A stretch of DNA of 64,000 nucleotides from Bacilli bacterium. Lineage in GTDB: Bacteria > Bacillota_I > Bacilli_A > RF39 > UBA660. The notes below the pieces were generated by a model. The model saw nothing but the letters and a program-made list of their open reading frames with translations. It was not told the DNA's origin and searched no databases. The number at the start of each line of letters is the position of its first letter. Position 1 is the stretch's first letter. Below are positions 8,882 to 55,600 of this stretch, one piece after another. Where the stretch lies: assembly GCA_017450205.1 (NCBI GenBank), contig JAFSVF010000005.1, positions 1-64,000 of the forward strand, given 5' to 3'. The position numbers and the translations under genes are program-made.

Positions 8882-8910
8882 TTGTAATTAATAATTATAT
8901 AAATTATAAT
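8882..8910 (+). promoter_or_regulatory. Promoter of the minor pilin operon
   Basis: TTGTAA (8882-8887), 17 bases, TATAAT (8905-8910). AGGTGTGG at 8923-8930 is the ribosome binding site for ATG 8936. Confidence 0.6.
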
Positions 8911-8935: not shown

Positions 8936-10030
8936 ATGAAAAGTAAAAATGGATTTATTGCTACAAGTGTTTTATATGCATTTTTAATTGCTTTTTTAAC
9001 ACTATTTTTAGGTTTTATGTCTGCTTATATTCAAAACAAGCAATTAATAAATAGAATAGAAGAAATGGCAAAAGATGATTTAGAAAAATATGGTAATACT
9101 AGAATCTCTGATATGGAAATCGGAGATTATGTAATATTTGATACAATTGATAACGTAAGTAATGGACTTACTACCGATGTTCAATATACTGCGCCAATTG
9201 ATCCAAACACTAAATGGATTTTATTTAGTATTGATAAAACATCAAGTGAAAGTGATGACTTGTATTATTTTGTTAGTGCAAGTGATGCATTAAAAGGTGG
9301 TTTGCTAATGACTGCGATAAATAATATTGATCCTACTACTGGGCCAGAAAGTCATGAATCATTACCAAAAGATTTTTATACTAGTAATCTATCTACTTTA
9401 TCTAAAGTTTTAAATGGAAATGTTTATTACAATGCAGCATCACAAACTTTTAGAAGTTATGATTTTACAAAAACAGGTATTACTGAAGATGGTAATTATA
9501 AAGTTTTTAGTTATCAATTTATGTATTATTTAAACGGTGGAATTGACGTTAGATTAATGAACAATAAAGATATTAAAGATATCAATAATATTGATAATAT
9601 AAAAATTAAACATGCAATATTTAGACAAAATGATAAATATACATTTTGGAATATTAAAGATGATGATTTAGGTGAATCGGGATTACCAAATGAAGAAGGA
9701 TTTTATACTTTAGAAGTCAAAAATTTAAACATTGATAAACCTGATTATGATTCTGATGAAAGTAGATATTGCAGCTCTTCATTAGGATTTAAACATATTG
9801 CAAAAATAGTATCTAGTAAAGAATATTATGATTATTGTTATTATCCGGGTTCATATATAGGTACATGCTACGATTCTAATCCTAAGTGTGGAGGAACTAC
9901 AACACAAAATCCAAGATTTGTAGCAACAATAAAAGTATCTAAAAATGATGTGTCTACAAATGGATATATAGATTCAGGTAATGGCACAAGTATGTTACCT
10001 TATTTAATTACAAAGGGGGTTAAAAAATGA
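8936..10030 (+). CDS. Minor pilin-like protein without Glu5 (GspK-like position)
   Basis: 364 aa from ATG 8936; the upstream in-frame GTG at 8912 lacks a ribosome binding site. The N-terminus MKSKNGFIATSVLYAFLIAF has the prepilin form: basic leader, Gly-Phe cleavage point, then a ~25-residue hydrophobic helix. Counting Phe as mature residue 1, position 5 is Ser, not the near-universal Glu. Among T2SS-type pseudopilins the tip subunit GspK is the one that lacks Glu5. The external domain (about 45-364) has a Cys cluster near 285-325 and ends with SGNGTSMLPYLI, resembling the 'G.GT..NPY.I' ending of the next gene. It overlaps that gene by ATGA. A pilus-tip role is inference from N-terminus and context. 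Confidence 0.7.
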   Translation: MKSKNGFIATSVLYAFLIAFLTLFLGFMSAYIQNKQLINRIEEMAKDDLEKYGNTRISDMEIGDYVIFDTIDNVSNGLTTDVQYTAPIDPNTKWILFSIDKTSSESDDLYYFVSASDALKGGLLMTAINNIDPTTGPESHESLPKDFYTSNLSTLSKVLNGNVYYNAASQTFRSYDFTKTGITEDGNYKVFSYQFMYYLNGGIDVRLMNNKDIKDINNIDNIKIKHAIFRQNDKYTFWNIKDDDLGESGLPNEEGFYTLEVKNLNIDKPDYDSDESRYCSSSLGFKHIAKIVSSKEYYDYCYYPGSYIGTCYDSNPKCGGTTTQNPRFVATIKVSKNDVSTNGYIDSGNGTSMLPYLITKGVKK

Positions 10031-12594
10031 GAAGAAAAAACGCTTTTGTTTTAGCTGAAACGTTAATAGTAGTTTTACTTCTTACAATAACATTAATGAG
10101 CCTATATACAACTTTTTCAGCGATTGTTTTAAAAACAAAAAACAGAACTAACAATGATACAATAGATACTATTTATAAAACTACTTTTGTAAAAGATTTA
10201 TTAGATAATTATTATTTAAATGCAAAAACTGGAACTTCATATACTGATTCATTTAGCTATTATGCTAGCGTGAATACCAAAATATGTGATGTATATGATT
10301 ATAATGGAAGTAAAAGTAGATTCCTAAATAATGGTGAACAGATAATAATATGTAATTTTGAATCATATCATAATACGAGTGAAAAAGTAGATAATGATCC
10401 TTTATATGATATTGTAAAATCATATAGTATTGATAAAATTTATTTAGTTAATTTTGGAAATTTGAATACGAATGCAGCATATAATTTGCTTGATGCTTCA
10501 ACAATAGATTATTCACTTGGAAAAGCTAAGAAATTAGTCGGAGATTATATGGTTGTAAAGTATAAAAAAACATATGTGTATCCAGTTGATTATGATAGAG
10601 TTGTAGATTTTGATCCGGATTTTGAAGTATATCATTCTTCAATTCGTCTAAACACAATTCAAAGAAATGAAAGTGCAGCTCCAATTTTGCTTTATGAAGA
10701 TGCTACTTCGAATGAAACTCCTGCAGAAACTCAATTACTTGAAGATAATGATCAATATCAATTATTATCTCAAAATAATTTTACACATCATCCAGGGCAA
10801 GTTATTATTGGATGGGTAAATGATGAAGCCAAAGATCTTTATGGAACATATGATGGTTTTCAATCATGTTTGAACAATAAAGCTAGCCTTGACGAAAACA
10901 TAATGTGTGAAAAAGTAGGAACAGTAATTAGGGTAAAAAGTTACACTAGAAAATTATATGCTATATGGTGTGGTGATGGTAAATTATCAACTGCAATTGA
11001 ATGTCAAATACAGTCAAACGATCCGTCTTCCAAAAATGGAGCTTTTAACGATAGACATGAAGGATATAATGAAACAAATATAGTATACCGTGGTACAGGT
11101 GGAGACAACTTTGTTAGAATTGGTGATTATTGTTATTCCTTAGTTTCAACATTTGGTTCAACTGATAGCATAAAAACTTTGTTTTATGGAGCATATGATA
11201 AAACAAAAAATGAATGTAATAGTAAAACAAATATGGCTCCAGAAGCAGCAAGTAGCTTTAACAGTGGATTTAATTATTTGAGTTATGCATGGATGTTTAA
11301 TAAACAAGGAACTTCTTCCGGTTTAGGAAATGATGAGGAATTAAAAGCTAAAACTGGACTAATTGAAATTGTTTCAGAACCAGCAAAAAGCTCAACACCA
11401 TGTCCATATAATTCATACTGTTACTTTGGAAGTAAAGTTGTATATGATCAAGATACACATAAATATACAATTCTAAACGAAGATAATTCACCAGTAACGG
11501 AAAAAATCAATTTTGCAAGTTTTGAAGCGTCAAATTACGCAGGATTAAAAGATGAAAAATTTGTTCATAAGTATGTATGTCCAGGTGGACAAACAACAAC
11601 TTGTGATAATGAAATTTATTATTATGTTGGTGTCACAAGCGACAATTATACAAAATTTTATAAAATCAAGAATGGATTAAATTATAATGATATTTCAAAT
11701 AAACAATTAATTGCATCTAAGAGTGTAAGCTATTCTAATGGAATATACACATTAAAAACTGATAGTCCAGATGATTATATTACATTTACAATTAGTGAAT
11801 ATAATAATGCATCTGCTGATTTGAATAGAAAATTAAGAACATATAAATATATGTGTGATGGTGATTTATTAAAACGAGAAGATAATAGTAAATACACATG
11901 CTCAACACTTTTATTTGTTCTTAATAGATATAACTCAGGAACAGTTCTAAAATTAACAGGTGGAATGACCACGCAAGATGAATATGATAAAGATTTAATT
12001 GGTACATTATCAAATAGAAATACTTCTAGTAATATAAAAAATAAAATTGATACTTTTTATAATGAAAATTTAAAACCGTATGAAAAGTATTTGGATTCGA
12101 ACGCAACATTCTGTAATGATTTAACTGAAACAGTGAATATGAATCTAAATAATTTACCAACTAATAGTTTTTATATGACAAATCAATTTAGTACTTACTC
12201 AAATGGAAATAGTGCTAATGGGCAATACAAAAACTGCGATGATGAAGGACAATTTTTATATTCAAAGCATGGCTCATTGTTAGGTAATCAATTGATGGAC
12301 AACCCAATAGGACTATTAACATATGAAGAGTTTACTTACGTTGCAGGTGGTAACAATGTTTCAAGTACAAGTTATTTAGCTGGAATATACTATTTGATGA
12401 ATCCTTCATACATGAAGACATCAACTGATTCACTATTTAGTTATGGATATTATGTTTATTCAACGACAACTAGGGAAGATGCTAATGGAAATTCAACAAG
12501 TAATAGAATCATAAGACCAGTAATATCTATAAAATTAGATAGTATTATTTCAAAAGGAACTGGATCATATAATAATCCATTTGTATTAGGGTAG
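10027..12594 (+). CDS. Large minor pilin-like surface protein
   Basis: 855 aa. The N-terminus MRRKNAFVLAETLIVVLLL is prepilin-like: cleavage would fall between Ala and Phe, leaving Glu at mature position 5, followed by a hydrophobic helix. The rest is a large extracellular region with many Cys residues (for example YAIWCGDGKLSTAIEC), a segment 'GQVIIGWVNDEAKDLYGTYDGF...KLYAIW' reminiscent of InlB-type B repeats, and a C-terminal part ending RPVISIKLDSIISKGTGS then YNNPFVLG. At 855 aa it is far larger than a normal pilin, so it probably adds an adhesive or structural domain to a pilus or pseudopilus. Coupled to the upstream gene by a four-base overlap; its TAG stop abuts the ribosome binding site of the next gene. 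Confidence 0.7.
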   Translation: MRRKNAFVLAETLIVVLLLTITLMSLYTTFSAIVLKTKNRTNNDTIDTIYKTTFVKDLLDNYYLNAKTGTSYTDSFSYYASVNTKICDVYDYNGSKSRFLNNGEQIIICNFESYHNTSEKVDNDPLYDIVKSYSIDKIYLVNFGNLNTNAAYNLLDASTIDYSLGKAKKLVGDYMVVKYKKTYVYPVDYDRVVDFDPDFEVYHSSIRLNTIQRNESAAPILLYEDATSNETPAETQLLEDNDQYQLLSQNNFTHHPGQVIIGWVNDEAKDLYGTYDGFQSCLNNKASLDENIMCEKVGTVIRVKSYTRKLYAIWCGDGKLSTAIECQIQSNDPSSKNGAFNDRHEGYNETNIVYRGTGGDNFVRIGDYCYSLVSTFGSTDSIKTLFYGAYDKTKNECNSKTNMAPEAASSFNSGFNYLSYAWMFNKQGTSSGLGNDEELKAKTGLIEIVSEPAKSSTPCPYNSYCYFGSKVVYDQDTHKYTILNEDNSPVTEKINFASFEASNYAGLKDEKFVHKYVCPGGQTTTCDNEIYYYVGVTSDNYTKFYKIKNGLNYNDISNKQLIASKSVSYSNGIYTLKTDSPDDYITFTISEYNNASADLNRKLRTYKYMCDGDLLKREDNSKYTCSTLLFVLNRYNSGTVLKLTGGMTTQDEYDKDLIGTLSNRNTSSNIKNKIDTFYNENLKPYEKYLDSNATFCNDLTETVNMNLNNLPTNSFYMTNQFSTYSNGNSANGQYKNCDDEGQFLYSKHGSLLGNQLMDNPIGLLTYEEFTYVAGGNNVSSTSYLAGIYYLMNPSYMKTSTDSLFSYGYYVYSTTTREDANGNSTSNRIIRPVISIKLDSIISKGTGSYNNPFVLG

Positions 12595-12603
12595 GTGATA
12601 ATT

Positions 12604-15600
12604 ATGAACAAAAGACAAGTAAATTCTAAAGGTATGACAATTGTTGAAATCTTAGTAAGTGTTGTAATTATTTCCTTAGTAATGGGAGTATTGTTTACTT
12701 TACTATTGCAATTGCAAAAAATTAATAGTGAAAGTTCAAAAAAATCTACAATATTGATTTCTCGTAACGTAATAACCAAAGCTATTGAAAAGGACATGAT
12801 TGAAATAGGTGTAAAAGCTATTTCTTCATGTACCTATTCAGAATTTAATTTAAATCATTTAATTGATGAAGACGAACCATATTATGATTGTGTAAAAATT
12901 GAATATAATCAATCATATGATATATCAGATTTAGGCTATATTTTAATATATAAACAATCTTCAGATATTTCTAATCCATCATGGGTAATGAAATATGGAA
13001 GAGGTTATTATGATAACTGTGTAAGTGGAAATGTTCCAGTCTATGAAAATTGGAAGGAAACATATTCAGTTGTACAAAAATTAGATGAAAATATAGCATT
13101 AAAATTGAATCCGATGGGTAATAAATTAACTTACACATCTAGTTTTGAAAGTGGCAAAAAATATAGTGAACAAAAATTAAATAGCGGTAACCTTTATATT
13201 CCAATAATGGATGAAGCTGGATATAAATATGACATTGATTTATCTTTTTCATTTAAGTTAAATTATCCGTCTGTACCAAGTATTAGTAACGAAGAAAGAA
13301 ACTTTACATGCGCTGAAGATGATAATTCATTATCATGTTTTTGTGAAAACGGAGTGTGTGACAAAACAGAATCTAATTCCTATATTTATAAATGTTCAGA
13401 AACAAAAGCAAAATTAGGATCAGTTGTTGGTATGAATAAAAACTTTATAAATGTTTCTAATGTTAATAAAGTTGGCATATATTCAAGTAACGTAAGAACT
13501 GTTACTTTTTATAACGAAGACGACAATACATTAAATAAAGATTTATTTCCACCACCAATAGATATTTCATATTCCCAAAATGGAACAGTCAAACTATATT
13601 ATGCAAAAGATAGTAAAGAAAATATATATGATTTAAATATAGTACAAAGCGGTGGAGTAACGGTATATGGTTCTTCACTTGCAAGTATGTTTTCAGATTT
13701 TACAATGTTAAAAAGTGTTAATTTTGGAGGATTTAATTCAAGTGGAATAACTAACATGAACTCAATGTTTTATAATTGTCCAGAATTAACAACACTTATA
13801 AATTTTGAAAAACTAGATTTTTCTAACGTTGAAGATGTTTCATTAATGTTCTATAGAACAACGATGATAAAAAGGTCACCATTTAAAGGTATAAATTTAG
13901 AAAGCGTGTTATACGCAAATTCGGTATTTAATATGTCTGGAATTAGTAATGACTTTAATTACGCAACAGATTTTAATGCAAAAAATGTAAAGACTATGAG
14001 AAATTTTCTAAAGAGTTCAAAAATATTTACTTTCACATTAGACTACGGTGGAGAGACAATGCCAAATCTAGTTAATACTTCAAATATTTTAACTAATTGT
14101 AGTTACTTAACTGATGTAACGTTATCTAATACAGTTCTTCCATCATTTACTTCTATGGATTATACTTTTGATAATTCTAAAAAATTGGTAAGAGTAATAA
14201 TAAAAGACTTTATAACGCCAAATTTAAATTCTATGATGAATGTATTTTATAATTGTACATCATTGGAAAAAGTTACTTTTGAAAACTTTAATACAACAAA
14301 TGTTACATCATGGGTATATGCATTTTATTACACCGCATTAGGAAATTTTGATATGAGTATGCTTTCATTTGAAAATGCTACAACTTTCCAATATATGTTT
14401 GGATATAGTAGTATTAAAACATTAAAATTAAACGCTGATGATGAAACAAATGATGAACGATTTGATAGTTTAAAGAATTTAAGTGATATGTTCTATCACT
14501 CACCAAACTTTGAAGGGTTTACTGGTAAAAAACCGAAATTCAGAGGTGCTACAACTGTAGAAGGTATGTTCTCTTATGCAGGAAATAATCTTGAAAAACT
14601 TGTAGATTTTTCAAACTTAGAATTAAATAATTGTACTAATTTCCAACAAATGTTTTATTATTCATATTATCCAGCGATTGACTTATCTGGTATTCATAGT
14701 AAGGTTAAAGATGAAATTATAAATATGAATAAATTTATGTGTAATAGCACTAAATTACATTATTTCTTCTTATGTGACGCAGAATTCCAAACTGGTGTTA
14801 ATTTACTTGCAGCATTTCAAAAATGTTACACTTTAACGTTTGTCGCAGGACTAAACTATAGTAGTGATGAATCATTAGCTAACTATTTTGCAGGAATAAC
14901 ACCATACGCTCAAAAAGATGGAAGATATCCATTTGATAGATTTATGATTGATACTGGTTATGCAACAAGTTTAAATTATGCATTTGAGAGTGATGGATAT
15001 TTAAGAGGAATGCCTGATGGTTTTCTAGATGGAATATTATGTAACGAAAATACAACATTTATATCTTTATTTAATTATGCATTTACAGAAGTTATACCAA
15101 ATAGTATAAATATTTCAGAAGAAGACTATTTTAAAACATATGAAGTAGTTATTCCTTTTAGATTAAGTAGCACAACAATAATGCATGGAGCTATATTCTA
15201 TCATACTTATAATTTGGCATCTATAAGATTCAAAAATCCTGGAGAAATTAGGTCAACAAGACCATACTATCCTGAACAATCTTCTTTGGTTAAAAATTTT
15301 GGTAATAATGCTTATGGAAATCATAGAGTAAATTCTTTAAGATTATATTTAGATGATATGACTATATGCCATAGTCATTCATCTTCGGGTCTTAATAAAT
15401 GCTCATTTACTAATGGAATTGAATATGCTTTTTCAGAATTTGGTGCCAATGATAAAAGTTATAATGAATATACAAGATTTGTAAGAGATGGTATAGAAGG
15501 AGTTCCGTTAGAAATACATTTATCAGATGATTGTGATATTGCAAAATATCAATATAAAAATGGTAACAGTAGATTTCAATCAGTTTCTATGAATAAAGTT

Positions 15601-15639
15601 ACATACTATGGACCTGATGGTTGTGACTATACATCTTAA
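12604..15639 (+). CDS. Type IV pilin-like N-terminus fused to BspA/DUF285-type repeat adhesin
   Basis: 1011 aa from ATG 12604 (the GTG at 12595 is part of the AGGTGAT site). N-terminus: SKGMTIVEILVSVVIISLVM, a textbook class III prepilin signal with Gly-Met cleavage and Glu at mature position 5. After a pilin-like alpha1 helix and a Cys-containing region (about 230-290), residues ~340-800 carry repeated units such as 'SMFYNCPELTTLINFEKLDFSNV', 'NVFYNCTSLEKVTFENFNTTNV' and 'DMFYHSPNFEGF'. These match the BspA-like / DUF285 surface repeat (M-F-x-x-C/S-x-x-L-x-x-L/V). A solenoid adhesin carried by a pilin stem is the simplest reading. Closed by a strong terminator, it is the last gene of the operon. 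Confidence 0.8.
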   Translation: MNKRQVNSKGMTIVEILVSVVIISLVMGVLFTLLLQLQKINSESSKKSTILISRNVITKAIEKDMIEIGVKAISSCTYSEFNLNHLIDEDEPYYDCVKIEYNQSYDISDLGYILIYKQSSDISNPSWVMKYGRGYYDNCVSGNVPVYENWKETYSVVQKLDENIALKLNPMGNKLTYTSSFESGKKYSEQKLNSGNLYIPIMDEAGYKYDIDLSFSFKLNYPSVPSISNEERNFTCAEDDNSLSCFCENGVCDKTESNSYIYKCSETKAKLGSVVGMNKNFINVSNVNKVGIYSSNVRTVTFYNEDDNTLNKDLFPPPIDISYSQNGTVKLYYAKDSKENIYDLNIVQSGGVTVYGSSLASMFSDFTMLKSVNFGGFNSSGITNMNSMFYNCPELTTLINFEKLDFSNVEDVSLMFYRTTMIKRSPFKGINLESVLYANSVFNMSGISNDFNYATDFNAKNVKTMRNFLKSSKIFTFTLDYGGETMPNLVNTSNILTNCSYLTDVTLSNTVLPSFTSMDYTFDNSKKLVRVIIKDFITPNLNSMMNVFYNCTSLEKVTFENFNTTNVTSWVYAFYYTALGNFDMSMLSFENATTFQYMFGYSSIKTLKLNADDETNDERFDSLKNLSDMFYHSPNFEGFTGKKPKFRGATTVEGMFSYAGNNLEKLVDFSNLELNNCTNFQQMFYYSYYPAIDLSGIHSKVKDEIINMNKFMCNSTKLHYFFLCDAEFQTGVNLLAAFQKCYTLTFVAGLNYSSDESLANYFAGITPYAQKDGRYPFDRFMIDTGYATSLNYAFESDGYLRGMPDGFLDGILCNENTTFISLFNYAFTEVIPNSINISEEDYFKTYEVVIPFRLSSTTIMHGAIFYHTYNLASIRFKNPGEIRSTRPYYPEQSSLVKNFGNNAYGNHRVNSLRLYLDDMTICHSHSSSGLNKCSFTNGIEYAFSEFGANDKSYNEYTRFVRDGIEGVPLEIHLSDDCDIAKYQYKNGNSRFQSVSMNKVTYYGPDGCDYTS

Positions 15640-15642
15640 TTA

Positions 15643-15669
15643 AAACTGCTATTTCGATAGCGGTTTTTT
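15643..15669 (+). terminator. Terminator of the minor pilin operon
   Basis: AAACTGCTAT (15643-15652), loop TTCG, ATAGCGGTTT, then Ts. A stable UUCG-capped hairpin. Confidence 0.9.
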
Positions 15670-15680: not shown

Positions 15681-15696
15681 TACTAAGGTGAAAAAA

Positions 15697-16704
15697 ATGA
15701 CAAAAATAAAAACATTTTTGAATTATTGTATTAATTTTCTAAAAAGGAATGTTATAAATTTAATAACTTTAACTTTTCTTTTATTATGTATTTTTTATAA
15801 ACCAAATGTTAGTATTGAAGCTCCAGGTGGACTTGTTAATATTGATGAGCGTTTATCAAATGTCGTTTATAAAAGTGAAGGTTCTCTTAACTTAACATAT
15901 GTAACTAATTATAGAGGTAACTTAATAACTGTTCTTTTAGCTAAAATATTGCCTGATTGGAATATTGTAAAAGATGAAGATGTAAGTAATCTTGATTATG
16001 AAACGTTATTAAAAGCACAAACTATAAATCTTTATAGTTCAATTAGTAATGCAACATATAATGCTTATAAAGAAGCAGGTGTAGATATAAATATAAAAGA
16101 TACAAGTGAATATATTTATTATATTTATCCTGATTTTGCAGAAACATCACTTGAAATAGGAGATAAACTTCTAAAATATGATGATCATGACTTTGTTGAT
16201 TCAGTTGAATTTAGAAAGTATATTTTAACTAAGAGTGATGGAGATATAATTAACTTTAAAGTTTTAAGAAACAAAGAAGAAAGTGATGCTTATGCTAAAG
16301 TAAAAACTTTAGAAGATACTAAAGCAATCGGAGTAGTAGTCTATACAATATTTGATTATGAAAATGACCCTGATATTCATTATGCTTATAAACCATCTGA
16401 GGTAGGTTCATCAGGTGGACTTATGTTAACTTTAAGTATTTATAATGCACTTGTTAGTGAAGATATAACTAAAGGGTATACTATAAGTGGAACAGGCACA
16501 ATAGATTTAGAAGGTAATGTAGGAGAAATTGCCGGTATTAAATATAAAATATTAGGTGCTGCTAAATCAAAAGCTGATGTCTTTATTGTTCCAAGTAGTA
16601 ATTATGAAGAAGCAGAAAAAGTTGTTAAAGAAAGAAAATTAAAAATTAAACTAATAAAAGCAGATAATTTTAAACAAGTGTTAGAAGAACTTTCCAAATT
16701 GTGA
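15697..16704 (+). CDS. Membrane-anchored PDZ / Lon-like serine protease (YlbL/SepM type)
   Basis: 335 aa from ATG 15697. One N-terminal membrane helix (about 18-36) is followed by 'SIEAPGGLVNIDERL', typical of the YlbL/SepM family, then a PDZ-like segment (about 145-205: 'FAETSLEIGDKLLKYDDHDF') and a C-terminal Lon-type protease domain (about 205-335). Catalytic Ser239 lies in VGSSGGLML and Lys282 in IAGIKYK, in place of the common GPSAG and GG.xxK motifs. YlbL/SepM proteases cleave extracellular or membrane substrates such as peptide pheromones. It directly follows the minor pilin operon with its own promoter, so processing of a surface protein is possible but unproven. Confidence 0.85.
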   Translation: MTKIKTFLNYCINFLKRNVINLITLTFLLLCIFYKPNVSIEAPGGLVNIDERLSNVVYKSEGSLNLTYVTNYRGNLITVLLAKILPDWNIVKDEDVSNLDYETLLKAQTINLYSSISNATYNAYKEAGVDINIKDTSEYIYYIYPDFAETSLEIGDKLLKYDDHDFVDSVEFRKYILTKSDGDIINFKVLRNKEESDAYAKVKTLEDTKAIGVVVYTIFDYENDPDIHYAYKPSEVGSSGGLMLTLSIYNALVSEDITKGYTISGTGTIDLEGNVGEIAGIKYKILGAAKSKADVFIVPSSNYEEAEKVVKERKLKIKLIKADNFKQVLEELSKL

Positions 16705-26395: not shown

Positions 26396-26929
26396 ATGAA
26401 AAAAATAAAAAAATTCACTATTATATTTACATTAGTTTTTACTTTTTTTTATAGTATGTTAAATGTAAATGCTGGTGTAAAAAGTATCGGAGAAAATCTA
26501 GAAAAGAATTCAACATCAAGTACTACAATTAGATACCTTTTTGTATATAAATATGATTTAAATCCAAAGTTTAATCCAAATACATATGAATATGATATTA
26601 TTGCACCACCAGGTACAAATAAAATAAAACTAACTTATAGAGCAGCATCTCAATTTTCAAAAGTTGATGTTGATATGCCTGAAAACTTAACTAATGGTTC
26701 AATAATAATAGCAAGATGTACAGCGCAAGATGGAAGTGTAAAAGAATATAAGTTTACATTAAGATATTCGAATTCTAAGTTACTATACACTATTTTGATA
26801 ATATTTATAATCCTAATTTTAATAGTTTCTATTACTTCATTAGTGTTATATATTCTATGGAAGAAAGGAATTATTAAGATAACTAAAAAACATAAAGAAA
26901 AAATTGGCGAAGAAAATTATGTAAATTAA
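26396..26929 (+). CDS. Small membrane protein with one cadherin-like beta-sandwich domain
   Basis: 177 aa. Signal peptide (KKIKKFTIIFTLVFTFFYSMLNVNA), one external domain (about 45-128) and a C-terminal membrane helix (about 132-158) with a basic cytoplasmic tail. The domain shows the PF12733-type landmarks: 'YDLNPKFNPNTYEYDIIAP', a middle strand pair, and 'TAQDGSVKEYKFTLRYS'. In the same window this domain occurs in the 50001 protein and many times in the 52640 protein. Here it stands alone directly before two major pilin genes. It could be a docking or assembly partner on the membrane; that is inference. Confidence 0.75.
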   Translation: MKKIKKFTIIFTLVFTFFYSMLNVNAGVKSIGENLEKNSTSSTTIRYLFVYKYDLNPKFNPNTYEYDIIAPPGTNKIKLTYRAASQFSKVDVDMPENLTNGSIIIARCTAQDGSVKEYKFTLRYSNSKLLYTILIIFIILILIVSITSLVLYILWKKGIIKITKKHKEKIGEENYVN

Positions 26930-26970: not shown

Positions 26971-27000
26971 TAAGTTATGATAAGGAAGGAGAAAGAAAAA

Positions 27001-27549
27001 ATGAAAAAAAATAAAGGTTTTACATTAGTAGAATTACTAGCAGTAATCGTAATTCTAGCAATCATCATGATTATCGCAATTCCAGCAGTATTACAAACAA
27101 TGCAATCTGCAAGACAAAAAACATTCAAGGAGTATGTAACTAAAGTTTATAGCGCAGCACAAAACGCATATCTAGCTAACCAAACGTTAGGTGGAAATAC
27201 ATCTGGTGTTGATGAAAAAACAGGTGTTACAATGGAAGGACAATTCTCTGGTGAAGAAACAGCAAGAACATTTACTGGATGTAAAGCATATGATGTAGCA
27301 ACTGGATTAGGATTATCATCAACTGGTTCATATAAAGGAGCAGTTGTAGTATGTCCTGCAACAACAGTAGGTGCTGAAACAACTATTTGGGTTGGATTAA
27401 AAGACGATAATTATTCTACTAAAACATTTATTCTTTACCAAGGTGAAGATAAGATTGAATTAGGTACAGCTGCTGAATTCACATATGGTGATGATGGCGG
27501 AATAGCTAAAGCAGCTAATGGTGTAACATATAATGGAACAGCTAAGTAA
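27001..27549 (+). CDS. Type IV pilin (major-pilin-like), copy 1
   Basis: 182 aa from ATG 27001; AAGGAAGGAG lies just upstream, and an ATG at 26977 is before that site. N-terminus KKNKGFTLVELLAVIVILAI: short basic leader, Gly-Phe cleavage, Glu at mature position 5, Pro22-type kink (AIPAVL). Then an amphipathic helix (MQSARQKTFKEYVTKVY) and a small globular domain with two Cys ('TGCKAYDV', 'VVVCPATT') that likely form a disulphide, ending GVTYNGTAK. ComGC/pilin-like in build. High similarity in its first 50 residues to copy 2 shows a recent duplication. Own promoter and terminator suggest high, independent expression of a filament subunit. Confidence 0.9.
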   Translation: MKKNKGFTLVELLAVIVILAIIMIIAIPAVLQTMQSARQKTFKEYVTKVYSAAQNAYLANQTLGGNTSGVDEKTGVTMEGQFSGEETARTFTGCKAYDVATGLGLSSTGSYKGAVVVCPATTVGAETTIWVGLKDDNYSTKTFILYQGEDKIELGTAAEFTYGDDGGIAKAANGVTYNGTAK

Positions 27550-27560
27550 TAACAATTAAG

Positions 27561-27587
27561 AGAATGATTTAAATCATTCTTTTTTTA
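27561..27587 (+). terminator. Terminator of pilin 1
   Basis: Perfect inverted repeat AGAATGATTT / AAATCATTCT (27561-27580) followed by seven Ts. Confidence 0.85.
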
Positions 27588-27618
27588 TAAAATGTATTGT
27601 AAATAAAACAAAATTATA

Positions 27619-27648
27619 TTGATTTAAAATATATGATAATTATATAAT
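27619..27648 (+). promoter_or_regulatory. Promoter of pilin cassette 2
   Basis: TTGATT (27619-27624), 18 bases, TATAAT (27643-27648), inside a leader nearly identical to that of pilin 1. Confidence 0.7.
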
Positions 27649-27676
27649 TAAGCTATGATAAGGAAGGAGAAAGAAA

Positions 27677-28174
27677 ATGAAAAAAAATAAAGGTTTCACA
27701 TTAGTAGAATTACTAGCAGTAATCGTAATTCTAGCAATCATCATGATTATCGCAATTCCAGCAGTATTACAAACAATGCAATCTGCAAGACAAAAAACAT
27801 TCAAGGAGTATGTAACTAAAGTTTATACAACTGGACAAAACGCATATCTAAGTAATCAAACTTTAGGTGGCAATGCATCTGGAGTAAAACCAGTAACAGT
27901 TACATTTAAAACACAACCTGGTTGTACAGCATTCGACGTAAAAGAAGGATTAGGATTATCATCAACTGGTTCATATGAAGGAGCAGTAGTTGTTTGTCCT
28001 GGTACAGGTGTAAATGATCCTACTAAAATTTATGTTGGACTAAAAGATGATAACTATTCTACTAAAGGTTTTATTCTTTATGAAGGTGAAGATAAGATTG
28101 AGTTAGTAGGCAAAGATGACACTGAAGCATTAAGTTATACAACAGTAAGTGCTTCAAATAACTCAATTTCGTAA
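27677..28174 (+). CDS. Type IV pilin (major-pilin-like), copy 2
   Basis: 165 aa. The first 50 residues, through KTFKEYVTKVY, are identical to copy 1. The next block is close (TTGQNAYLSNQTLGGNASGV against SAAQNAYLANQTLGGNTSGV), then the globular parts diverge while keeping 'GLGLSSTGSY.GAVVVCP' and 'VGLKDDNYSTK.FILY.GEDKIEL'. Both Cys are kept ('PGCTAFDV', 'VVVCPGT'). The C-terminal tail is shorter and unrelated (SYTTVSASNNSIS). It has its own promoter, ribosome binding site and terminator. Two subunits that share the assembly helix but differ on the surface could co-assemble or alternate. Confidence 0.9.
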   Translation: MKKNKGFTLVELLAVIVILAIIMIIAIPAVLQTMQSARQKTFKEYVTKVYTTGQNAYLSNQTLGGNASGVKPVTVTFKTQPGCTAFDVKEGLGLSSTGSYEGAVVVCPGTGVNDPTKIYVGLKDDNYSTKGFILYEGEDKIELVGKDDTEALSYTTVSASNNSIS

Positions 28175-52639: not shown

Positions 52640-55600
52640 ATGAAGAAAGTTTATAAATATATAGTAATTTTTGTTTTTGTATTTATGTTAATTTTTGGAT
52701 TAGCTTTTTTTGGCTTAAATAAATATAATACTATTGTTAGTTCTAATAAAAACTTGCTTGTAGATACTGATGGAATTGAATCAACTCAATTAAAATCTTT
52801 AGTTGTTGAAGATTTTGAAGATGATTTAACTTTTTATAAAGATATTTATTCTTATAATATTTCTATTTATGATTCTTATTATTATTTAAATATTAATGCA
52901 GTTCCTGAAGATCAAGATGCAACTGTTAAAATAAGTGGAAGAGAATATTTAATTAATAATACTGGTTCTATTATTGTTAAGGTTTCTTTAAATGGTAATA
53001 GTAGTACTTATACTATTAACTATACTAAAGGACGAAGTACAAGTGATTTAAGTTATAGTAAAACTTATAGTTATACTGGAGGACAACAAATATTTACTGT
53101 TCCTTATTCTGGTTACTACAAGATAAGAGCTTGGGGTGCTGGTGGAGGGAAAGATGGTAAATATGGTGGACCTGGTGGTTACTCTATTGGTGTTGCAAGA
53201 TTAGTTAAAGATGAAGTTTTATACGTTTATGTTGGTGGTGTTGGTGCTTCAGCTGCTCAAAACTCTGGTGGTGGTTACAATGGTGGTGGTAACGCTGGTA
53301 ACTCTGGTTCTTCCGGAGGTGGAGGCGGAGCTTCACACGTTGCTTCAGTAGCTGGAGTTATGAGTTCGTTATCAAGTTATATTGGAACATATTCATCAAC
53401 TACTGGTACTTATAATTCTGATAAGATTATAATCGTTGCCGGTGGTGGTGGCGGTGGAGGAAACTCTAATGACTACTACGGAGGTGGTGGAGGAGCTGTT
53501 GGACATAGTGGTAACGCTTCTTCAGGTGGTTCTCAAACTGCAGCTGGTACTGGTAATCGTAATGGATCATTTGGACAAGGTGGTCATAGAAACGGTGACG
53601 GCGGTGGCGGCGGAGGCGGCTTCTGGGGTGGAGCTGCTGGTAATGGAGATAATAATGGATCTGGTGGATCTGGATTTATCGGATCTTCAAGATTAATTTC
53701 TTATGGTGATATTACTAAACACATGACTTGTTATTGGTGTAGTACTAATAATAATCCTGAAACAAAAACTATTAGTAACTCTAATATGTCTAGTTCTTTC
53801 TTAGATGATTATGCAAGTAATACACATGGAAGAATTATTTTTGATAGATTAGCTGTTCCTTCTAATAACTATTATTTAAGTAATATTACTAGTGATACTG
53901 GTACTTGGAATAAAGTATTTAATCCGATTGAAGAAGATTATATGTTATCTGTTAGTATGTATACTCATAAAGTTAATCTATATGCTAATATGACTGATTC
54001 TTCTACTCAATCTGTAACAGGTACTGGAGAATACATTTTAAATATTGGTTATAATTATGCAACTATTAGTGTTACTGCTGATAATGGAGAAGTTAAGAAT
54101 TATAACATTACTATTTTAAGAGAAAGTTTAAAAGGTAAACATTCTTCTGAATTAAGGCTTATTAATTATGATGATGTTGGTGATGTTAGAAAAACAATAT
54201 ATGTTGATAAAGGTGTACTTGTATATGATTTAACATTACCATCATATAAGATTGCTAATAACATTGAAGCTATCCCTTATGACTCTGAAGCAACAGTAGA
54301 AATTACTGGTAGTGATTTCATTATTGATGATGGAACTATTAGAATTAAGGTTTCCGCTCCAGGAGTAGACGACACTTTATATATTATTAATTATACTTTA
54401 AAGAATTATTATCAAAGTATTACTAAAAACTATTCTGCTACTAGTTCCCAATATACATATACAATTCCAACGACAGGATACTATAAACTTGAAGCCTGGG
54501 GTGCTAGTGGAGGTAATGATGGTAAAGTTGGTGGTGATGGAGGATACTCTATTGGTGTTGCTTTCTTAACTGAAGGTGAAACACTTTACATGAATGTTGG
54601 AACTCGTGGTTCTAACTCTGCTAGTGGTAACGGTGGAGGTTACAACGGTGGTGGTAATGCAGGTGGCTCTGGTTCTTCCGGTGGTGGAGGAGGAGCAACA
54701 AGTGTTGCTACTGTTTCGGGTACTCTTCCTAACTTAGGAGCTTATATTGGTACTTATTCTTCTACTAGAAAAACTTATGATTCAGATAAAATTTTAATCG
54801 TTGCCGGTGGTGGTGGCGGTGGAGGAAACTCTAATGACTACTACGGATGTGGTGGAGGAGCTGCTGGTCATGTAGGTAATGCATCTACAGCTGGTTCTCA
54901 AACTGCTGCAGGTACTGGTAATCTTAATGGATCATTTGGACAAGGTGGTCATAGAAATGGCGACGGTGGAGGCGGCGGAGGCGGCTTCTGGGGTGGTGCT
55001 GCTGGTAATGGAGATAATAATGGATCTGGTGGATCTGGATTTATTGGTTCTTCAAGATTAATTTCATATGGTGATATTACTAAGCACATGAGTTGTTATA
55101 ATTGTCCTGCTCAAAGTGATCCTGAAATATTAACTTATGCTAAAGGTACTCATGGAAGTTCATTTGTAGCTGATGTAGCATCTACTTCTGGTGGATATTT
55201 AAAGGTTGAAATGCTTGAATTCATTAGTGAAAATAATTTCTTAACAAGTTTAACTGTTGTAGATGATGAACTTGAAGATACAGGTACTTGGGATAAAGAA
55301 TTTGATCCATCTGTATATGATTATAAAGTTACTGTAGATACTTATTTAAATTATGTTACTGTAACAGGTGAAGCTGCTAATGCTAAATCAGTTGATGGTA
55401 GCGAAAGAAGATTTATTAATCTTGGAGATAACTATTTTACTTTAACAGTTACTGCTCAAAATGGTAGTGTAAGAACTTATACAGTTAATGTATATCGTGC
55501 TTATTCTTCAGTTCCTACAACTGAACTTATGTTAATAGATTTCAATTTAACTGATGGTAATGTTTATGAAAGAATCTTCTGTGAACACGATGTATATGAT

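Follow-up and report, generated by a model that had tools for sequence, protein, structure and literature searches.

Three adjacent genes, MP1, MP2, and MP3, were found in a 64,000-nucleotide stretch of DNA (the window) from an uncultured gut-type member of the Bacilli and are best read as encoding the minor pilin complex that would initiate a type IV pilus, sit at its tip, and present exchangeable adhesins (probability about 0.6). The host genome is an AT-rich draft of 1.41 Mb, and its closest named relatives are metagenome-assembled (isolates RUI228, hRUG910, and SRR12081297_bin.31, among others). In the window, the trio is flanked by lon on one side and by a gene for a sepM-like protease on the other, and it comprises the following features, in which L194 and L195 are the loci of two related species with the same giant form.

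8882 to 8910, forward strand: promoter-like site, TTGTAA-17-TATAAT; hexamers and 17-base spacing kept in L194 and L195, spacer diverged
8936 to 10030, forward strand: MP1, 364 aa, from the ATG at 8936 to the stop at 10030; GF-IATS N-terminus, no Glu5; alpha/beta head
10027 to 12594, forward strand: MP2, 855 aa; stop codon TAG at 12592-12594
10027 to 10653, forward strand: MP2 pilin stem, residues 1-209 (AF-VLAE); end-to-end alignment with stand-alone homologues of about 173-188 aa
10654 to 12591, forward strand: MP2 grafted region, residues 210-855; missing in short homologues
12604 to 15639, forward strand: MP3, 1011 aa, from the ATG at 12604 to the stop at 15639
12604 to 13413, forward strand: MP3 pilin stem, residues 1 to about 270 (GM-TIVE); aligns with stand-alone homologues of 244-267 aa
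13675 to 14514, forward strand: MP3 DUF285/BspA-type module, in two scoring stretches (13675-14031 and 14149-14514)
14515 to 15636, forward strand: MP3 C-terminal part, diverged and repeat-like, in all three giant-MP3 species
15642 to 15667, forward strand: terminator hairpin and T-run; equivalent hairpins in L194 and L195, with different stem sequences

An earlier note on this DNA had described a three-gene operon with these coordinates and lengths, and the open reading frames and junctions agreed with it, including the ATGA overlap between MP1 and MP2 at 10027-10030. The ends of these two genes overlap or abut in all three giant-form species (window, L194, and L195). Judged as single-sequence matches, the promoter-like site and the terminator hairpin do not stand out from chance; both the TTGTA[AT]-17-TATAAT arrangement and the hairpin are conserved in L194 and L195 despite diverged surroundings, which upholds the shared promoter and terminator that the note had proposed. 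By sequence comparison, MP1-MP2-MP3 is confirmed as a single tight transcription unit. The draft is split into 28 contigs, which might suggest that the giant proteins arose by assembly fusion, frameshift, or gene decay. This is extremely improbable, given that open frames of matching length, 37-49% identical from end to end, occur in two independent assemblies, together with the promoter-like site, gene junctions, and terminator; chance or an assembly artefact is refuted by this three-species comparison.

The pilin assignment is strong for MP2 and MP3, the N-termini of which (A-FVLAETLIV and G-MTIVEILV, respectively) each combine the short hydrophilic leader with a final Gly or Ala, the stretch of about 20 hydrophobic residues, and the Glu5 of a type IV pilin. 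The earlier note had named PF07963 and PF03382 as models to search with. For PF07963, MP3 scored 20.7 bits in hmmscan, against a cut-off of 21.2, and 25.6 bits in the genome search, and MP1 and MP2 gave no match; at E 0.01, the model was matched by 38 of 45 members of the MP3 family and by 6 of 45 members of the MP2 family. No other pilin model matched MP2 at its cut-off. The MP3-family profile matched solved pilins (geopilin, E 1e-7; Streptococcus sanguinis PilE1, E 0.001), a sequence search of the PDB with MP3 alone returned nothing, and the MP2-family profile reached E 0.01 against solved pilins. PF03382 (DUF285) was matched by MP3 at 56.3 bits (E 3.4e-15, cut-off 25), so that the BspA-like repeats on a pilin stem claimed for this protein are present, although its score of 21.5 bits for TIGR02167 (cut-off 30) indicates that the repeats have diverged. 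An AlphaFold2 model of MP2 contains, at moderate confidence, a helix at residues 6-64 and an alpha/beta head predicted with a pLDDT of about 80 up to residue 183, with the graft mostly unreliable, and a fold search with this model found no match in the PDB. Pfam and NCBIfam matches of MP1 and MP2 to DfrA, Epiplasmin, HAD_SAK_1, and TraL fell far under the cut-offs and were taken as chance.

Prepilin-type N-termini had been claimed for all three proteins; the claim holds for MP2 and MP3, which carry the Glu5 motif, and is circumstantial for MP1. The N-terminus of the latter (G-FIATSVLYAF) is without Glu5 and is unconvincing taken by itself because its motif score, 3.7, barely exceeds the non-pilin background of 3.0-3.6. 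No pilin model matched MP1 at the cut-offs in the profile search, and none convincingly matched its 22 homologues. The assignment draws on the operon context, on the conservation of the GFIATS-LYSFFLVF N-terminus in more than 20 genera, and on an AlphaFold2 model of moderate confidence (pLDDT 69, pTM 0.67), in which a helix at residues 4-53 is followed by a mixed alpha/beta head. The fold search with this model found no match in the PDB, and sequence and profile searches with the MP1 family matched no solved pilin there. The missing profile and PDB matches of MP1 and the moderate models were counted against the tip-complex reading. Some K-type minor pilins are without Glu5.

For a survey of the family, 117 genomes were searched for MP1-, MP2-, and MP3-like genes. 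Because the N-terminal profiles of MP2 and MP3 merged into one general pilin profile, the census was made by N-terminal motifs and adjacency; the contigs were searched for MP1 with a 9-row alignment, as a 23-row version was too diverse. In about 40 genera the trio or an MP2-MP3 pair stands side by side, as expected of a co-encoded set; the genes often lie between lon and sepM/mutS and occasionally follow the order MP2-MP1-MP3. PilC was present in 111 of the 117 genomes. The roughly 44 relatives of MP2 are mostly 150-290 aa (largest 624 aa) and those of MP3, also about 44, mostly 150-260 aa (largest 554 aa), all exceeded by the window proteins of 855 and 1011 aa. Stems are conserved along their whole 180-270 aa, head cysteines included, and not just in the hydrophobic helix. 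Full-length homologues of MP1 in relatives are about 330-390 aa, and it is therefore neither oversized by acquisition nor the product of a graft. Thus the trio is a widespread family-level minor pilin set, and the description "oversized minor pilins" fits MP2 and MP3 of this clade but neither MP1 nor the trio members elsewhere, which are mostly short.

Several observations concern the surroundings of the trio. The window gene at 15688-16704 encodes a SepM-type protease with PDZ and Lon-type parts (123.7 bits, against a cut-off of 200), and in many genera such a gene follows the trio, either immediately or at a short distance. At L109, L110, L197, L198, and other loci, two uncharacterised genes often separate lon from MP1, and a third, encoded on the other strand, separates MP3 from sepM; these may resemble sporulation genes of the SpoVID/YsxE and YlbJ types. 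At L121 (G083:C11:3000-22900), two MP1-MP2-MP3 copies are each followed by a pilin of more than 1,400 aa, and no PilC (PF00482) was found in the genome carrying this locus.

The extensions of MP2 (about 645 aa) and MP3 (about 740 aa) start exactly where the short homologues stop, at residue 209 and at about residue 270, respectively. The L194 and L195 trios have the same gene order and full size (363, 901, and 1040 aa in L194; 392, 892, and 1026 aa as longest ORFs in L195) and share 37-52% protein identity with that of the window. Of 11 genomes of the genus surveyed at one threshold, 3 contained a giant MP3, 4 a short MP3, and 4 no match, the last including G043, for which a short form is nevertheless known. 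Both giant extensions occur only in this small clade: in a Lon tree, the window species, L194, and L195 group together as a single clade (100/100) within relatives that have the short version, for which a single gain of the grafts is the simplest account, and the MP2 and MP3 grafts were likely gained once. When the three proteins are compared with their counterparts at L194 and L195, identity is 68-82% over the N-terminal 50 residues and mostly 20-60% in the outer parts, whereas Lon is 82-92% identical; such fast-changing heads on conserved stems would fit changing surface ligands.

No Pfam family was matched by the grafted region of MP2, the last 190 or so residues of which form a module common to other surface proteins and pilins. 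This module recurs on a pilin of the same genome (C28:145350) and, in other genera, on MP1s, MP2s, and surface proteins that are not pilins; the MP2 of L225 that carries it is 485 aa, against 155-161 aa in its Lon-tree relatives. Other modules found on MP stems in other genera are ALK_LTK_GRD (glycine-rich), Ig-like, Fib_succ_major, Laminin_G_3, CBM_4_9, and DUF6273. One reading frame, about 4,875 aa long, runs from window position 52640 through 64000 to about position 7267 of L045 (C24:67267); it opens like a signal anchor and contains three or more glycine-rich blocks, the first of which matches ALK_LTK_GRD (E 1e-23), and many cadherin-like beta-sandwich repeats, and parts of it are similar to the module on some MP1 proteins (L117 and L118).

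The earlier note had staked its reading on a prepilin peptidase and a pilus ATPase in the genome and on the DUF285 match, and all of these were found. A PilB homologue (E 1e-124) is encoded on contig C26, and homologues of PilC and PilD are encoded next to one another on contig C20, PilD with both its A24_N and Peptidase_A24 domains. The window genome further contains 26 matches to PF07963, in ORFs of about 150-830 aa that are mostly single and scattered, and most of these proteins share the near-constant N-terminus GFTLVELLAVIVILAIIM. Two tandem major-pilin-like genes at 26977-28174 (190 and 165 aa) have the same N-terminal helix and adjoin a cadherin-like-domain gene at 26396. A cluster at L029 12454-17415 (C1:72453-77414) encodes a second, CpaF-like T2SSE ATPase and a protein that weakly matches RcpC/CpaB; no T2SSF platform protein was detectable in it, and it is a possible reduced Tad-like system.

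ComGC was matched by 25 of the 29 pilins examined in the window genome, and MP2 and MP3 gave weak ComGD- and ComGE-type matches, as might be seen if the trio primed a DNA-uptake (competence, ComG-type) or secretion pseudopilus and the grafts bound DNA or exoproteins. We consider this improbable, as the matches do not extend beyond the N-terminal helix, which all type IV filaments share, and the BspA-, lectin-, CBM-, and Ig-like grafts are binding domains of surface adhesins.

DUF285 was found on 11 of the same 29 pilins, MP3 counted, and all 11 complete DUF285 ORFs of the window genome are pilins (one more stretch is severed by a contig end). Because these modules occur only on pilin-type N-termini, the pilin stem may be the general surface anchor of this genome; MP1-MP3 would then show their adhesins at the monoderm cell surface and never enter a filament, the prepilin-type N-termini being mainly membrane anchors. 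The very large heads would suit such an arrangement, as would an MP1 that lacks Glu5 and is missed by all pilin models. It is nonetheless unlikely in our judgment, because PilB, PilC, and PilD are retained, the conservation of the stems extends over 180-270 aa with the head cysteines, and large modular pilins presented at pilus tips are known (PMC8179133). The three giant-MP3 genomes contain 20-27 pilins and 36-54 DUF285 stretches each, compared with 0-8 and 0-2, respectively, in the other eight congeners. As the three form one clade, this expansion counts as a single correlated change rather than as three separate events; the joint increase suggests that the clade uses the pilus as a main organ of adhesion.

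Under the preferred reading, that of a tip complex, PilD would presumably cleave the short leaders of MP1, MP2, and MP3, and the N-terminal helices would assemble into a small priming complex. Type IV filaments grow from the base, so that a priming complex would end at the filament tip, a location that is plausible for the trio; heads of this size could clash within the filament unless at the tip, which was also counted against this reading. MP1, without Glu5, may correspond to the capping K-like subunit and MP2 and MP3 to I/J-type subunits. In the giant clade, the tip would then present the C-terminal adhesin modules, the uncharacterised surface module of MP2 and the DUF285/BspA-type repeat domain of MP3, to host or microbial surfaces. 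A more tentative proposal, which we regard as possible but doubtful, is that one pilus machine draws on the approximately 26 scattered pilins, about ten with DUF285, and on a tip trio with modules of the same kinds, such that filament composition and binding range could be recombined and minor pilin stems would serve as a docking platform for module exchange over evolution. The series, which runs from the short stems of most genera to the giant grafts of one clade and the other modules seen elsewhere, allows one to test how type IV pili acquire new binding functions, here in uncultured Bacilli with small genomes, in which attachment has been little studied.

The earlier note knew of no standard named system of this composition, a view that does not hold, as there are counterparts in the modular pilins (PMC8179133) and in PilA-PilB-PilC of S. 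sanguinis, a three-subunit, two-adhesin minor pilin complex modelled at the pilus tip (PMC9934059, PMC8179133). The latter is the closest described system: each set would provide the type IV pilus of a monoderm with three minor pilins, of which two are modular and have adhesin domains at their C-termini (vWA and lectin in PilABC), and in both one subunit departs from the usual Glu5 motif (PilA there, MP1 here). The trio differs in its larger grafts (645 and 740 aa), one DUF285/BspA-type and one an uncharacterised module, and in the location of its genes apart from pilB/pilC/pilD; no sequence similarity linking it to PilA, PilB, or PilC was detected. The GspH/I/J/K (HIJK) tip-initiation pilins are likewise co-encoded small pilins with one bulky subunit lacking Glu5, to which MP1 would correspond; no match of the trio to GspI/J/K exceeded the cut-off, and the K/I/J correspondence is one that we infer. 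PARCEL/DUF285 (TIGR02167) surface repeat proteins of the Mollicutes, patchily distributed and expanded in some small genomes (PMC2996958), belong to the same repeat family as MP3, but the window genome carries these repeats on pilin stems, and those of MP3 have diverged. The literature search found no description of DUF285 on type IV pilins or of type IV pili in RF39-type Bacilli. Modular type IV pilins number more than 1,200 proteins in 264 architectures, with IPR026906 among the 15 commonest (PMC8179133), this being the LRR_5 domain of BspA proteins (PMC5998147). MP2 and MP3 share their architecture, a pilin module with an extra functional domain, and differ in that their syntenic minor pilin operon can be traced across genera in which its stems carry varied modules, and in that the graft can be assigned to one clade. 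Modular pilins are thus already known as a kind, of which the trio with its grafts is a large variant; what is new is that the operon is syntenic across the family, that the graft points are exactly placed, and that pilins and DUF285 expanded together.
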